This document shows, piece by piece, positions 3,471 to 57,578 of a stretch of DNA of 60,563 nucleotides. The DNA comes from an uncultured Candidatus Saccharibacteria bacterium (GTDB lineage: Bacteria > Patescibacteriota > Saccharimonadia > Saccharimonadales > Saccharimonadaceae). The stretch's first letter is position 1, and every line of letters starts with the position of its first letter. The stretch is taken from the NCBI GenBank assembly GCA_948435375.1, contig CAOJGQ010000005.1, positions 1 through 60,563 on the forward strand. Direction: 5' to 3'. Both the position numbers and the translations under genes were made by a program. A model generated the notes under the pieces. The model had not been told where the DNA came from, searched no databases, and saw nothing but the letters and a program-made list of their open reading frames with translations.

Positions 3471-5171
3471 ATGGCGCAAGATTTAGCTTCCGAAAAAACC
3501 AACCGAAAATTTCCGCAAAAACTCGCAATTTTTGGCTATCGTTTTGTTATCTTAATTGCAACTCTAATTCTTGGTTGGATTGTTCTATTATATCTGAACG
3601 CGGGACTTGATTTACAACCACTCACTTTCTTTATGCTTGCTGGCTTCCTCATTTTAATTTGTATATTCGTATTACTTTATAATCACAATTACAAAAAGTT
3701 TTTTTCATTTCTGAAACGAAAGTTTCCCAGCCTCACTCTTCAGAAAATTCTCAAAACATGTTTCGTTCTAGCTATCATCTTTGGTCTCATCGCGCGCCTG
3801 TCCACCCTCTGCCTTATGGAGCGAGTACAATTCCACGGCAAAGATTCTGATTATGGCGTCAGTTGGTATTACGCCGACGCATTGGTAGACTCTGAGCGAG
3901 ACCCTGAATTGTTCGAAGAAACTTATGTGGCTTTTTATCCACACCTACTCGGTTATATCGCAACTCTAACCGCTTTCTTGGGGGTTTTTGGCTCCAATTA
4001 TGCAGTGGTAATTATCTTGAACGTTGTTTTCGATATGCTCGCCGTTGTAATACTCTATGTCTTACTAAGAAAATGGCGCAACCGCAGTACAGCCTGTATT
4101 GGAGCAATTCTCTGGCTTGTCAATCCGCTCCAAATCCTCTATTGCGCGGTTAGCATGTCAGTCGTCGCTATCAATGCTTTTCTAGTCTTTGCTCTCCTCG
4201 TTGGCTACCTATTTTTCCAAAAGCTCAAACAAACCCAGCTCGACCCTAAGTTTTCTACCAAGAACCTGTTTATCACGGGTGTTTTTGCCTTATTGCTCGG
4301 CTTCACACTTAGCCTCGGCAATACTTATCGACCAATTTTTACCGCCCTGCTTATTGCTTTTGTTCTTACGCTCTTCCTCGGCGTTCTATATTATGGCAAA
4401 AAACTTATTTTGCCTGCCTTCGTGTCTTGTGTTATGTGCGTCATTGCTTTTGTCGGCGTAAGCTCTTTAGCTTCACTCGTGTACGCCAATATAAACCCGC
4501 AATATTCCAAGGAAGTTGGTGTTGGTTGGAATGTATATGTTGGAGCAAACTATGATTCGCGCGGACACTGGACAGCGCAAGATTTCAGTATGCTGCGACC
4601 AAAACTTTGGGGGGAAAACATCGATCTTGTTGATCCGTTTGACGGCTCCACTCAGGACAATATCAAACCAGCCAATCTCGCTGAGCTTCAAGATGAATTA
4701 TTAGAAATGGGCCTCGTGCGCTACAAGAGCATGAATCCATTAGAACTGATTAGTCACTTTATCCATAAAACTGTAGTCTTGTTCACGGGTGACGGCACGA
4801 CCGTCCCGACTATCACTTGGCCATTTGTTAAAGAATTTGCTATGCAAGATAATCAACCAATTTACCAACTCATCCACAGTCTTGGTAAACTGCTCTTGGT
4901 CTTTTGTATTATCTTATCTTTCATCTTCTCTGGGCGGATATTTATCAAGAGCAAACAAGCTCAAAAGGCTGAGAAAGACCCCATGGTCTTCTGGGTTATA
5001 CTTTCATTCTGTGGTCTAGTTGCGGCGTCCATGCTCGTCGAAGTAATGTATCGCTATATCATGCCAATCAGCGTATTCTTCGTCGTTCTCGCCATTTGCG
5101 AGCTTGGTGGCTGGTTCGATAAAATCAAGAACTCACGCAAAAACATTGATTCTTCTCAATCACGAAACTAG
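3471..5171 (+). CDS. polytopic membrane protein, GT-C/GT39-type glycosyltransferase-like
   Basis: 566 residues with about ten hydrophobic segments. After two N-terminal helices and a basic loop, an extracytoplasmic loop with Asp-rich KDSDYG (about 124-129) and AFYPHLLGYI (about 154-163) precedes further helices, the layout of GT-C transferases (GT39/ArnT group) that use polyprenyl-phosphate sugars outside the membrane. A large exported loop (about 345-430) carries VGANYDSRGHW, and the C-terminus ends in helices. The call rests on topology and the loop motif only, so donor and acceptor are unknown. The gene follows its own decayed copy and stands in the glycan region, consistent with decorating an exported polysaccharide or protein. 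Start is ATG 3471, leaderless. Confidence 0.6.
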   Translation: MAQDLASEKTNRKFPQKLAIFGYRFVILIATLILGWIVLLYLNAGLDLQPLTFFMLAGFLILICIFVLLYNHNYKKFFSFLKRKFPSLTLQKILKTCFVLAIIFGLIARLSTLCLMERVQFHGKDSDYGVSWYYADALVDSERDPELFEETYVAFYPHLLGYIATLTAFLGVFGSNYAVVIILNVVFDMLAVVILYVLLRKWRNRSTACIGAILWLVNPLQILYCAVSMSVVAINAFLVFALLVGYLFFQKLKQTQLDPKFSTKNLFITGVFALLLGFTLSLGNTYRPIFTALLIAFVLTLFLGVLYYGKKLILPAFVSCVMCVIAFVGVSSLASLVYANINPQYSKEVGVGWNVYVGANYDSRGHWTAQDFSMLRPKLWGENIDLVDPFDGSTQDNIKPANLAELQDELLEMGLVRYKSMNPLELISHFIHKTVVLFTGDGTTVPTITWPFVKEFAMQDNQPIYQLIHSLGKLLLVFCIILSFIFSGRIFIKSKQAQKAEKDPMVFWVILSFCGLVAASMLVEVMYRYIMPISVFFVVLAICELGGWFDKIKNSRKNIDSSQSRN

Positions 5172-11895: not shown

Positions 11896-11930
11896 GGTGG
11901 CTAATCAAAACAACCATTTTGGAGGTAAGC

Positions 11931-13616
11931 ATGAAACACCATCAAACCCATCAACACCGCCGAACTCATCGAGCTTCGAGCCACAAAACCTTGTGTTCGC
12001 TGTCGAGCAAGCCTTATTTCGCCGGTTGGTCATGCCTTGGGCTTCTGAGTTTTATCATATTTATTACATTCTCGCCAATCAGCTTTTCGCCATCTTCCGC
12101 CCTCCAGAACACCACCCAATCTCTTGACACCACTGCCACCGTGAAAGCCACAGCTAGCCTCGCAGTTTCGCTTACGCCTACCGTCGAGATTAATAGTATG
12201 CCCACTCCGAGCGGCAAATTTAACACTGGTGAAGCAACTTTAAACGTTAGCACAAACAACCTCAAAGGTTACAGCGTTTATATTAATACCAAAGACCAAA
12301 CCACGGCCATGACCCGTGACAATGCCACCACGATCGGAGAATCAGTGCATAAAATCGAGGCTCTCGCCTCTCCCGCTCCTGCGTCCGGCTTTGCTGCCAA
12401 TACGTGGGGCTACAGTTTGGCGGCGACTACAGCCGATGAGTCTACGATTTATCAACCGATTTCTAGCTTGGACCAGCCGATGTTGGCCGGCGGGGGAGCC
12501 ACCCAAACCAACGGCGATACTTATCACCTGACTTTCGGCGCGAAAATCGACCAGGCTCTCCCCGCCGGCCAGTACACCAACCACGTCGCCGTTTCCGTCA
12601 TTGCTAATCCACTTGAGATTACCACACTCTCCGAATTGGTCTATATGCAGGACATGACACCAGAAATTTGCCAAAATACCGGCGAAATCACACCAGGCAA
12701 CGAAGTAGAGAAGCAACTCGTCGACGTCCGTGATGGCAAGAAATATTGGGTCGCCAAACTCGCCGACCAAAACTGCTGGATGACCCAAAATCTCGCCCTT
12801 GACCTCAAGGACAACGCAACCTTGCCTCTTACGCCCTCAACTTCAGACGTCCACGCAGAGTGGCGTCCAGAGAGCAACACGGCTACCAGTTTTCCGGAAA
12901 CTGCCGCCAGCTATTCGGGTACCGGTTCGTGGAACCTAGGTGATTATGTTTTTGCCACCCCAAAGAAGGCCGCTTGCACTGAAACCATGACCGATTATGC
13001 GCAGTGTTCATATTTCCAAGAAGTTTCAAGCTGGCAGCCAGACTTTGTCGCCCAGAACGGCGGCTGGAACGACTACACTGGCTACGTAGCGGCCGATCAG
13101 TCTACCCAAACTTATGACGCGCACTATTTAGTCGGAAACTTTTACCAATTTTACACCGCGACGGCTCAGAGTTCTGCGCCCAGTAGTGATATTTCAAGCA
13201 CTACCGGTTTTAGCGATGCCCCAGATAGTGTCTGTCCTAAAGGCTGGAAACTCCCGACCGGCAGCTCTTACCAATACCCCAACACCGCAAACCGTGCCAG
13301 TTTTTATAATCTCGCTCTGGCTTATGGCTATCCAGAAATTAGCCAGTGGCGGGAAGCCTCAGGCTGGGCGCTCAGAACCCCGCTCAAACAGGGTACTAAT
13401 TATATTATCGACGCACCGATGCATTTCCCGATAATTGGTATGATCAACATGAGCACTATGCAACTACATAGCCCGTCCGGCTGGGGTTATGCCTGGACCT
13501 CCACTAGCAACGATAATAATTGGATTGTGCCATCTATCAGCATGGAGCAAACTTCTATATATATTGCGGATGTCAGGACAGAAAACGGCCTCCCCGTCCG
13601 CTGTCTCGCGCGCTAA
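11931..13616 (+). CDS. exported surface protein with FISUMP (Fib_succ_major paralogous) domain
   Basis: About 561 residues. GGAGGT at 11921-11926 places the start at ATG 11931 rather than the upstream TTG. A basic His/Arg-rich N-terminus is followed by a signal-anchor-like hydrophobic stretch (about 32-50). Residues about 65-225 form a Thr/Ser-rich beta region. Then LVDVRDGKKYWVAKLADQNCWMTQNL and SVCPKGWKLPTGSSY are hallmarks of the FISUMP domain, a C-type-lectin-like fold used by exported proteins and by targets of diversity-generating retroelements. It ends TENGLPVRCLAR, the usual C-terminal pattern. The ligand is unknown. A silent C-terminal cassette of the same family lies tail-to-tail at 13644-13845. 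Confidence 0.8.
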   Translation: MKHHQTHQHRRTHRASSHKTLCSLSSKPYFAGWSCLGLLSFIIFITFSPISFSPSSALQNTTQSLDTTATVKATASLAVSLTPTVEINSMPTPSGKFNTGEATLNVSTNNLKGYSVYINTKDQTTAMTRDNATTIGESVHKIEALASPAPASGFAANTWGYSLAATTADESTIYQPISSLDQPMLAGGGATQTNGDTYHLTFGAKIDQALPAGQYTNHVAVSVIANPLEITTLSELVYMQDMTPEICQNTGEITPGNEVEKQLVDVRDGKKYWVAKLADQNCWMTQNLALDLKDNATLPLTPSTSDVHAEWRPESNTATSFPETAASYSGTGSWNLGDYVFATPKKAACTETMTDYAQCSYFQEVSSWQPDFVAQNGGWNDYTGYVAADQSTQTYDAHYLVGNFYQFYTATAQSSAPSSDISSTTGFSDAPDSVCPKGWKLPTGSSYQYPNTANRASFYNLALAYGYPEISQWREASGWALRTPLKQGTNYIIDAPMHFPIIGMINMSTMQLHSPSGWGYAWTSTSNDNNWIVPSISMEQTSIYIADVRTENGLPVRCLAR

Positions 13617-13643: not shown

Positions 13644-13845
13644 TTATTGCCTCCGTCCCATAAAGCCAGCCCAACGAGGATTGCCATTCGATGGAAGCAC
13701 CTCGGTACGATAGAAATGAAGATTGAATGTGTAGAGTTCAGTTGTAAAAGTAGTGCTAGACCAATAAGCGCCATCAAGACTAGCGCTTCTCAAAGAACCA
13801 TAATCACCATAGAGATACCCGCCACGAGTTAGATATATAGGAGAT
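13644..13845 (-). pseudogene. orphan C-terminal FISUMP cassette (C1)
   Basis: On the minus strand the segment reads SPIYLTRGGYLYGDYGSLRS, then DGAYWSST, then NPRWAGFMGRRQ and two stops, i.e. only the last 65 or so residues of a FISUMP domain. The frame stays open upstream to an ATG at 13952, but that part is Ser/Arg-rich, falls in a hairpin repeat and is not FISUMP. There is no promoter or RBS. Its first 27 bp are identical to those of the cassettes at 56597 and 57268. It lies tail-to-tail with the intact FISUMP gene. It could be a silent donor cassette or a remnant. Confidence 0.7.
13818..13844 (-). repeat. 27-bp cassette-start repeat, copy 1
   Basis: Identical over 27 bp to 56597-56623 (plus) and 57242-57268 (minus). 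It encodes SPIYLTRGG with the same codons, including the rarer ATA and CTA, and sequence similarity drops sharply on both sides. Confidence 0.85.
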
Positions 13846-56561: not shown

Positions 56562-56596
56562 TCACGTAGCGGCTTACCAAACCAAACATCTTCAAT

Positions 56597-56623
56597 TCTC
56601 CTATATATCTAACTCGTGGCGGG
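56597..56623 (+). repeat. 27-bp cassette-start repeat, copy 2
   Basis: Identical to the minus-strand copies at 13818-13844 and 57242-57268. With the latter it forms inverted repeats that face inward and bound a 672-bp segment. Confidence 0.88.
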
Positions 56624-56956
56624 TTTATCTATCTGCCGCATGGCTCTTTGAGGGCTGCCGGTAACGAGGGCAACTACTGGGGAGCCACTACTTATATTTC
56701 TCCGACCCATGCTTATCACCTATATTTCCATAGCACTAACGTCTACCCGTCGGCTAGCACCAGTCGTTGGCACGGCTTTGTGGTGCGGTGCATAAAAATC
56801 AATCCGATCTTCGGTATCTTCTCGTTAGTCATTGGCATCTTTTTCAACGCTATCGATATCTTTTTACCCATTACGATTATGTTTCTAAATATTGACGACG
56901 TGTTTCTCAAACTACTAATTTTACTCGGAATTACAGAGGTAAAATTTAAACACTAG
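56597..56956 (+). pseudogene. promoterless C-terminal FISUMP cassette (C2)
   Basis: From the 27-mer the frame reads SPIYLTRGGFIYLPHGSLRA, then GNEGNYWGATTYISPTHAYH, LYFHSTNVYP and SRWHGFVVRC, i.e. the last part of a FISUMP domain. Instead of stopping after VRC it runs on for about 48 hydrophobic residues (NPIFGIFSLVIGIFFNAIDIF...) to a stop at 56956. Upstream the frame is closed by TAG at 56567, and there is no start codon before the 27-mer. It could only be expressed if joined to another gene's 5' part. Confidence 0.75.
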
Positions 56957-56971
56957 AAATCATATGTTTTC

Positions 56972-57268
56972 TCAAAAGAAGAGTATGTTTCTGCAAAAGC
57001 TCGACGAGCTTCTTCCGTTGCGGAGTATGCCTTTCCAAAACTTGCGCACGATTTTGAAAAACTTAGTAACCTTTCGTCGGACCGTAAAGCCATACCAGCC
57101 GGCATCATCAAGCGACGCATAGACATAAACATTATTGAAAGTTAAGTTAAAAGCTGAAAGCGTAGATGCGGCAGACGTGCCAGACCACAAAATACCATTA
57201 CGATCAGCGTACCTAAGAGCACCGATCCCAACGTGTACATTCCCGCCACGAGTTAGATATATAGGAGA
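56972..57268 (-). pseudogene. promoterless C-terminal FISUMP cassette (C3)
   Basis: Minus strand: SPIYLTRGGNVHVGIGALRY, then DRNGILWSGTSAASTLSAFN, LTFNNVYVY and AGWYGFTVRR, then a basic/aromatic run (KVTKFFKIVRKFWKGIL...) to a stop at 56972. The frame just before the 27-mer has a TAA. The tail of C3 and that of C2 end 15 bp apart, so the two cassettes converge within one segment. No promoter or SD of its own. Confidence 0.75.
57242..57268 (-). repeat. 27-bp cassette-start repeat, copy 3
   Basis: Right-hand partner of the 56597-56623 repeat in inverted orientation; one further base is shared with copy 1. Confidence 0.88.
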
Positions 57269-57328
57269 TTATGAGAATGTTAGTCAGTTTCAGGTTTGGT
57301 TCTGTTTTGCCGAAGAATTAAATATAAT

Positions 57329-57525
57329 GAAGCCTACACTATACTTTGGCTGTCTGTGTCATTGGTTTTTCGTTATTTGCTTTTGGACGCTGGACCATTC
57401 CGGACGTCACGAGGAGGAAGAGGAGCCTTTCACCCGTGACGACGGGATGAAAGGACTCCGTGTCCAGCACCAAAAGACAAATCGAAAAACCAACGGCCGA
57501 CAATCAAGTCTAACGTGTAGGCTTC
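57329..57525. repeat. large hairpin repeat, copy 3
   Basis: Ends pair perfectly (GAAGCCTACAC with GTGTAGGCTTC). An imperfect inner stem contains TTGGTTTTTCG/CGAAAAACCAA and GCTGGAC/GTCCAGC. The core repeats copies 1 and 2: ATTCCGGACGTCACGAGGAGG... unpaired, helix CCTTTCA/TGAAAGG, terminal CCCGT-GACG-ACGGG (57433-57446). It lies between cassette C3 and the UbiB-like gene, about 60 bp from the 27-mer. AATCGAAAAACCAA of its 3' arm occurs once more at about 57555-57568. Confidence 0.78.
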
Positions 57526-57578
57526 ATTACGATATTGCCTTACGTCAAGCCAGAATCGAAAAACCAACACCACCATGT

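Follow-up and report, generated by a model that had tools for sequence, protein, structure and literature searches.

The window, the whole 60,563-nucleotide stretch analysed here, comes from a Candidatus Saccharibacteria genome and contains two 27-bp inverted repeats, at 56597..56623 (+ strand) and 57242..57268 (- strand). The 27-nt arms are 100% complementary, are separated by 618 nt, and the next base mismatches on either side. Inward from each arm runs a reading frame. The + frame begins with NSPIYLTRGGFIYLPHGSLRAAGNEGNYWGATTY and stops at 56956; the - frame begins with SPIYLTRGGNVHVGIGALRYADRNGILWSG and stops at 56972, 15 bp from the other stop. Perfect repeats and convergent frames had both been described in an earlier note on this DNA, and both were confirmed. 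No upstream start codon was found for either frame.

Each repeat forms the conserved 5′ end of a variable-repeat (VR) cassette, the left one coding for SPIYLTRGG. Cassette 1 (56600..56785, + strand) consists of 62 codons corresponding to the C-terminal half of a FISUMP domain, and cassette 2 (57080..57265, - strand) is convergent with it. In each frame, the domain-like part is limited to roughly the first 62 codons, and the remainder is unrelated spacer. The Pfam FISUMP profile (PF09603) matched neither fragment alone. A profile built from the other copies in the genome matched both (2e-27 and 3e-25). As had been proposed, both cassettes read as silent alternative C-termini of a FISUMP surface protein. 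We take the domain to have a C-type-lectin-like fold, from knowledge of the family; its AlphaFold model had a pLDDT of 29.

The bases flanking cassette 1 on its left (56584..56599, + strand) and the equivalent bases of cassette 2 (57266..57281, - strand) fit the same degenerate 16-nt motif, AAACATCTCCNAATCT. No transposon-type target duplication was seen at the pair. Adjoining cassette 2, a hairpin-forming repeat element with ends TAATGAAGCCTACAC/GTGTAGGCTTCATTA could be read directly at 57325..57529 (no strand assigned). Similar elements, with ends of the TAATGAAG[CT]C type, occur at C1:60806, C2:54266, C23:7165 and C10:29236 (contig:position), and in several cassettes such a hairpin repeat is fused on, at the 5′ or the 3′ side. 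A third silent VR cassette, overlooked in the earlier note, lies at 13656..13841 (- strand). It is convergent with a full-length gene for a 565-aa FISUMP-domain protein (11919..13616, + strand) that does not contain the 27-mer.

The genome (908,884 bp in 30 contigs, 91% complete) was then searched as a whole for the 27-mer, as the earlier note had recommended. With up to 3 mismatches, a 24-nt core of the repeat occurs 85 times, on both strands, as compared to 0 times for the reversed control, showing that the repeat is not due to chance. Allowing 4 mismatches gave 86 copies in the stretches analysed, including in-frame copies in a FISUMP target gene. A profile of the encoded 62-residue unit matched 102 places, among them copies with an altered 5′ end. 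The copies are spread over 19 contigs; viral contigs contained no exact copy of the core. Only 14 of the 86 copies overlap an open reading frame in a simple call (at least 120 aa), and most of these frames are largely the cassette itself or a neighbouring one. A start codon of any kind between the upstream stop and the cassette is present in 21 of 85 copies. Neighbouring copies within 700 bp form 15 convergent, 9 divergent and 9 tandem pairs. The pair in the window is therefore one among many.

These results bear on the earlier reading of the segment as a shufflon, in which a site-specific recombinase would invert the stretch between the 27-bp repeats and thereby swap C-termini. Perfect inverted repeats, convergent alternative C-termini and the 15 convergent pairs are what such a system would display, and inverted repeats with alternative C-termini are indeed shared with the R64 shufflon. 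However, the two repeats are members of a family of about 86 rather than the borders of a local invertible segment, and copies are also tandem, divergent or single. No expressed N-terminus lies beside the segment and no coding frame reaches it from upstream at either end. Inversion of 56597-57268 would only exchange two startless frames. The shufflon reading is not supported. The recombinase search that the earlier note had advised was run for tyrosine recombinases; in the genome, 91% complete, it returned a single one, the housekeeping Xer, also present in every congener tested. One Xer-type tyrosine recombinase each was found in genomes with cassette libraries (G000, the present genome, G063 and G064) and in genomes with few or no profile matches (G026, G015 and G021), which argues against a tyrosine recombinase specific to the library. 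Dispersal over the genome, the lack of an adjoining expressed gene and of any tyrosine recombinase beyond Xer all set the locus apart from R64, and we consider inversion by a shufflon recombinase highly improbable.

Two related readings were discarded. At the cassette edge of G000 and G066, GTTAGAT resembles the GTTRRRY of integron cassettes, but at one end only, and neither an IntI integrase nor a second tyrosine recombinase was found in the genome. An Xer/dif-like site, for which inverted arms were not apparent by eye, was dismissed as unproven.

A candidate source of the cassettes was found on contig C16. This contig encodes a 412-aa reverse transcriptase (RT) that passes PF00078 and carries a YVDD motif together with VIGNLTSQ, which fits the (I/V/L)GxxxSQ motif of the RTs of diversity-generating retroelements (DGRs; PMC3521204). 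A short internal repeat insertion, GSAENGSGCVDDGFAENGYGRVDLEK, occupies residues ~163-200 of this RT (L064) and is skipped by the tblastn matches of its closest relatives. A scan of a genome-contig collection with the RT gave no relative. The C-terminal four-helix bundle of an accessory protein on C16 weakly resembles Avd (4dwl) and chains of DGR RNPs (E ~0.1-0.5 with a high Foldseek probability, for a model of pLDDT 60). On the strand opposite to the RT, an AAC-rich template repeat encodes the N-rich sequence LTRGGNVNITTGSLRNAGNNGNYWASTAYPSELYAYNLNFNSTNVNPSNNNNRWNGFTVRCLA.

C16 starts within a VR. This VR matches the template repeat at all 125 non-A positions compared, differs from it at 13 of 51 A, and is followed by RCLAK, a stop codon, the homing sequence GGTCCGGTGCC and a GGGGAGAAC/GTTCTCCCC hairpin. 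On contig C11, the N-terminal 517 residues of the target run open to the end of the contig. The halves on C11 and C16 would thus make a single target gene, presumably joined across a repeat-induced contig break, so that the full expression site is not available in one piece and the placement of the VR at the C-terminus of the target, before homing sequence and hairpin, is read across this break. Two 5′-truncated copies of the gene, at C10:32427 and C11:12026, differ from the template at A only. Overall, the three VRs that keep the C-terminus of the gene (C16, C10 and C11) are identical to the template at every non-adenine (0 non-A differences) and differ at 13-16 of 51 A. The expression locus that the earlier note had expected elsewhere, with the same 27-mer in frame, is thus represented by the C11 gene running to the contig end, the start of C16 and the C10:32427 fragment. 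Because the differences are adenine-specific with respect to a template repeat beside an RT, the source of the variation is a DGR. At the level of sequence, these comparisons establish that the DGR on C16 acts on the adenines of the region coding for the C-terminal half of a FISUMP protein of secreted type, and thereby diversifies it. The 27-mer is native coding sequence at the 5′ end of its variable repeat (SPIYLTRGG), not a recombinase site, and the 565-aa FISUMP gene of the window is a non-DGR paralogue of the target.

Two further observations were made. On C16, the sequence CCCGTACGATCTTCC is found downstream of the target VR and again on the 3′ side of the template repeat (737-752 and 3600-3650); possibly, it is an RNA or a homing element. 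A second RT of 340 aa, also passing PF00078, is encoded on C12 (L063, C12:1-2550, at 253-1275), and the gene just downstream reads like a phage terminase large subunit. This RT perhaps belongs to a phage-borne DGR or to a defence system.

The dispersed cassettes have the size of the VR and extend from a 5′ ATATATCTAACTCG to a 3′ ACGGTCC. At the DNA level, both ends, 5′ ATATATCTAACTCGTGGCGGG and 3′ GGCTTTACGG(TCC), hardly vary, even where more than half of the body differs. Differences from the template form a ladder from 5 to 80 of 132 non-A positions. Relative to the present template repeat, cassette 1 of the window differs at 28/132 non-A and 25/51 A positions, and cassette 2 at 48/132 and 26/51. 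In the 20 closest copies, 39% of template A are changed as compared to 5.5% of non-A (p ~1e-128, the sites being non-independent). Beyond the three VRs that keep the C-terminus of the gene, about 35 copies show the same adenine bias on older versions of the template, and the rest are more diverged. The homing sequence was found only at the C10, C11 and C16 VRs, at the template repeat and at one contig end; nearly all dispersed cassettes thus lack the IMH at the 3′ end that characterizes an active DGR target. Since nearly all cassettes are devoid of the homing sequence and most of a start codon, they would be frozen, neither expressed nor re-mutated in place. Taken together, the comparisons demonstrate that the cassettes are, as judged from their DNA, frozen copies of the VR of one DGR.

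The same data were considered with respect to a DGR acting in trans, with one RT and one template diversifying all of the ~85 VRs as active targets. DGRs with several VRs are known (PMC3521204, PMC6642488) and the adenine-biased differences of the ~35 copies would be expected. However, nearly all copies lack the homing sequence, most have many non-A differences, and only 21 of 85 have a start. Moreover, identical bodies occur at different sites: C2:40035 and C7:3687 share an identical 186-bp body within unrelated flanks. Diversification of all cassettes in trans is therefore very unlikely.

In addition to this identical pair, several other cassette pairs are 2-6 bases apart, showing that copying between such sites is non-mutagenic. 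The cassette at C15:5414 is a mosaic, the last 99 bases of its variable region being those of C7:15357 and the first 77 those of C10:4707 (corrected p ~0.002 for the C7:15357 comparison). The pair C10:4707/C10:29668 taken alone was not significant after correction. In some cassettes, a ~85-bp hairpin insert was observed between CTAAC and TCGTGGCGGG, with variable stems and a common outer sequence, CTACAGCCACTCTTGTGGT (L031 on C11 at about 92-180, C15:~210, C10:~14880, C26:~1240 and C25:~6415).

The ~86 sites that hold the copies are mostly non-coding, and their left flanks resemble AAACATCTCCNAATCT. The sequence upstream of the target gene itself is AAACATCTCCGAATCT; the 16 bases to the left of the cassettes agree with it at 12.0 of 16 positions versus 5.0 for random sequence. 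Mismatches avoid G (19 as compared to 54 expected, p = 2e-9) and A-to-G changes are rare. The left flank is therefore selected as a site rather than being the remnant of a copy in decay. Nor does neutral decay of a longer copied flank fit with the differing flanks of identical bodies or with the sharp end of the motif at about -17. A Shine-Dalgarno/start-codon reading of the outward edge was rejected, since in those copies that were inspected it led to tiny open reading frames only. Three elements are known to be required for DGR homing: the homing sequence, the hairpin and upstream homology of at least 8 bp (PMC3240598).

The reading frames of the cassettes are conserved. None of 36 young and none of 23 middle copies contains an in-frame stop, as compared to 2 of 24 old ones. 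When a neutral simulation was run to the observed divergence, ~40 of 45 copies were broken (minimum 34), as compared to stops in 2 of 45 old copies. Third codon positions are the least variable in young copies, following the NNC pattern of adenine mutagenesis, and the most variable in old copies, as in ordinary coding divergence. Rapid turnover of young copies could also account for intact frames. Altogether the cassettes are, by sequence, startless, homologous to the variable part of the target and preserved in frame, the properties expected of silent cassettes.

The same organisation was found in related genomes. By thymidylate synthase, the closest relatives that bear a name are uncultured Candidatus Saccharibacteria, at 80-87% identity. 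RTs at 60-67% identity are encoded by G063, G023, G064, G013 and G066. The cassette profile gave 118 matches in G023, 73 in G066 and 63 in G063, and 0-21 in most congeners with other DGR RTs, numbers that the own-genome profile may undercount. In G066, 62 complete cassettes with ends TTCGTCCGTAGCGG and CCCCATCCGTTGTCTGGCGTACTAGGTTAGA have 0 in-frame stops, and in its closest 28 cassettes 40% of A are changed versus 6.6% of non-A. G063 contains 46 cassettes with another pair of ends, also with 0 stops. These libraries, with their different ends, are independent of that of the present genome, which brings the species concerned to at least three. An assembly or binning artefact might be suspected in a 30-contig genome where several contigs end inside or near a cassette, but most copies are internal to contigs and have unique flanks, the estimated contamination is 1.13% and the pattern recurs in three species with different end sequences. 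We regard such an artefact as scarcely credible.

In G063 (L165-L181), ten further copies have a GTGCCGATCTTT tail, like the flank of the G066 template repeat, and most of them have GAACTTC tens of bases upstream, behind a spacer that is unrelated between copies. These tails may be a sign that cDNA of the template is able to insert at places other than the gene. In L168, L170, L172, L173 and L175-L177, also of G063, ~85-bp hairpin units with variable stems lie downstream of cassettes and repeat the terminal TATGTAGGAG of the cassette, showing that different small elements share one end.

Overall, the comparisons show VR copies that, on the DNA evidence, are dispersed, frozen, preserved in frame, bounded by fixed ends and exchanged among sites, in at least three species. 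We consider it fairly probable that they make up a dispersed archive of retired DGR VRs, between which recombination exchanges sequence and from which the expressed gene is probably supplied. The DGR on C16 would invent variants of the C-terminal half of the FISUMP protein by adenine mutagenesis, and VR-sized copies would be placed at the ~86 sites with a AAACATCTCCNAATCT-like left flank. The conserved cassette ends may serve as recombination arms; gene conversion would then exchange cassettes among themselves and return them to the expressed gene. The archive would thereby store and reshuffle variants that worked, as in Borrelia vls or Neisseria pilS. A role as donor for the expressed gene is our inference. 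No cassette segment was found inside the presumably expressed gene: its VR equals the template at all non-A positions, indicating that its last rewriting was by the DGR. We see an even chance that the whole works in two stages, the DGR of this symbiotic, ultrasmall bacterium inventing variants of the binding domain and the silent sites recombining past ones into the surface protein, providing a heritable memory of what hypermutation had produced before.

Alternatively, the cassettes might be a by-product, either selfish or neutral: non-autonomous elements that derive from the VR, multiply at intergenic sites by means of the DGR RT or some other activity, and are never used by the gene. Dispersal on both strands, the specific flank motif and the association with hairpin repeat elements would suit such elements, as would the ten G063 copies with a template-repeat-like 3′ tail, which look as if template cDNA had inserted ectopically. 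This origin is nevertheless rather unlikely in view of frames that are conserved even at 30-60% non-A difference from the template, and in two further species, and of invariant DNA ends beside strongly diverged bodies, which suggest continued exchange at the ends.

DGRs are thought to overwrite their target, so that each earlier variant is lost. Here, retired VRs are kept by dozens with their frames intact, in genomes of less than 1 Mb where bases are costly, and in at least three species. Should the archive feed the gene, it would unite the two principal ways in which bacteria vary their surface, mutagenic retrohoming and gene conversion from silent cassettes, and the epibiont would retain a memory of the binding specificities that it had earlier. 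If no such feedback exists, the cassettes still record, like fossils, what the DGR has produced and which template repeats have succeeded one another within a single genome. A search of the open-access literature retrieved no paper on dispersed silent DGR variable repeats.

The system on C16 shares with known DGRs, of the BPP-1 type as well as the cellular ones of Patescibacteria, an RT with the SQ motif and a template repeat, VR changes that affect adenines specifically, a VR at the C-terminal end of a FISUMP protein, and a homing sequence with a hairpin downstream at the target VR; its accessory protein may be Avd-like. Patescibacteria-restricted DGRs have already been described (PMC8144416). 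What sets it apart is the ~86 additional VR copies that lie outside genes, of which nearly all lack the homing sequence and most a start codon. The Schillinger survey counted up to four VRs per DGR (PMC3521204), and high VR counts are illustrated by 21 VRs merged in a single ORF (PMC6642488). In Thiohalocapsa PB-PSB1, DGR variable domains have also spread within the genome and targets may be reached in trans, but these are 15 full-gene targets duplicated by transposons, whereas the present copies are startless, VR-only fragments of ~186 bp with fixed ends (PMC10907252). As in Borrelia vls and Neisseria pilE/pilS, the cassettes match the variable part of one expressed surface-protein gene and have preserved frames, mosaic bodies and short conserved ends, being here startless by sequence; preserved frames are a common property of silent cassettes in vls systems (PMC11499132). 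Unlike in vls and pilS, the cassettes are scattered over 19 contigs instead of arrayed beside the expression site, the mosaics are seen among cassettes only, and the variants come from a retroelement.
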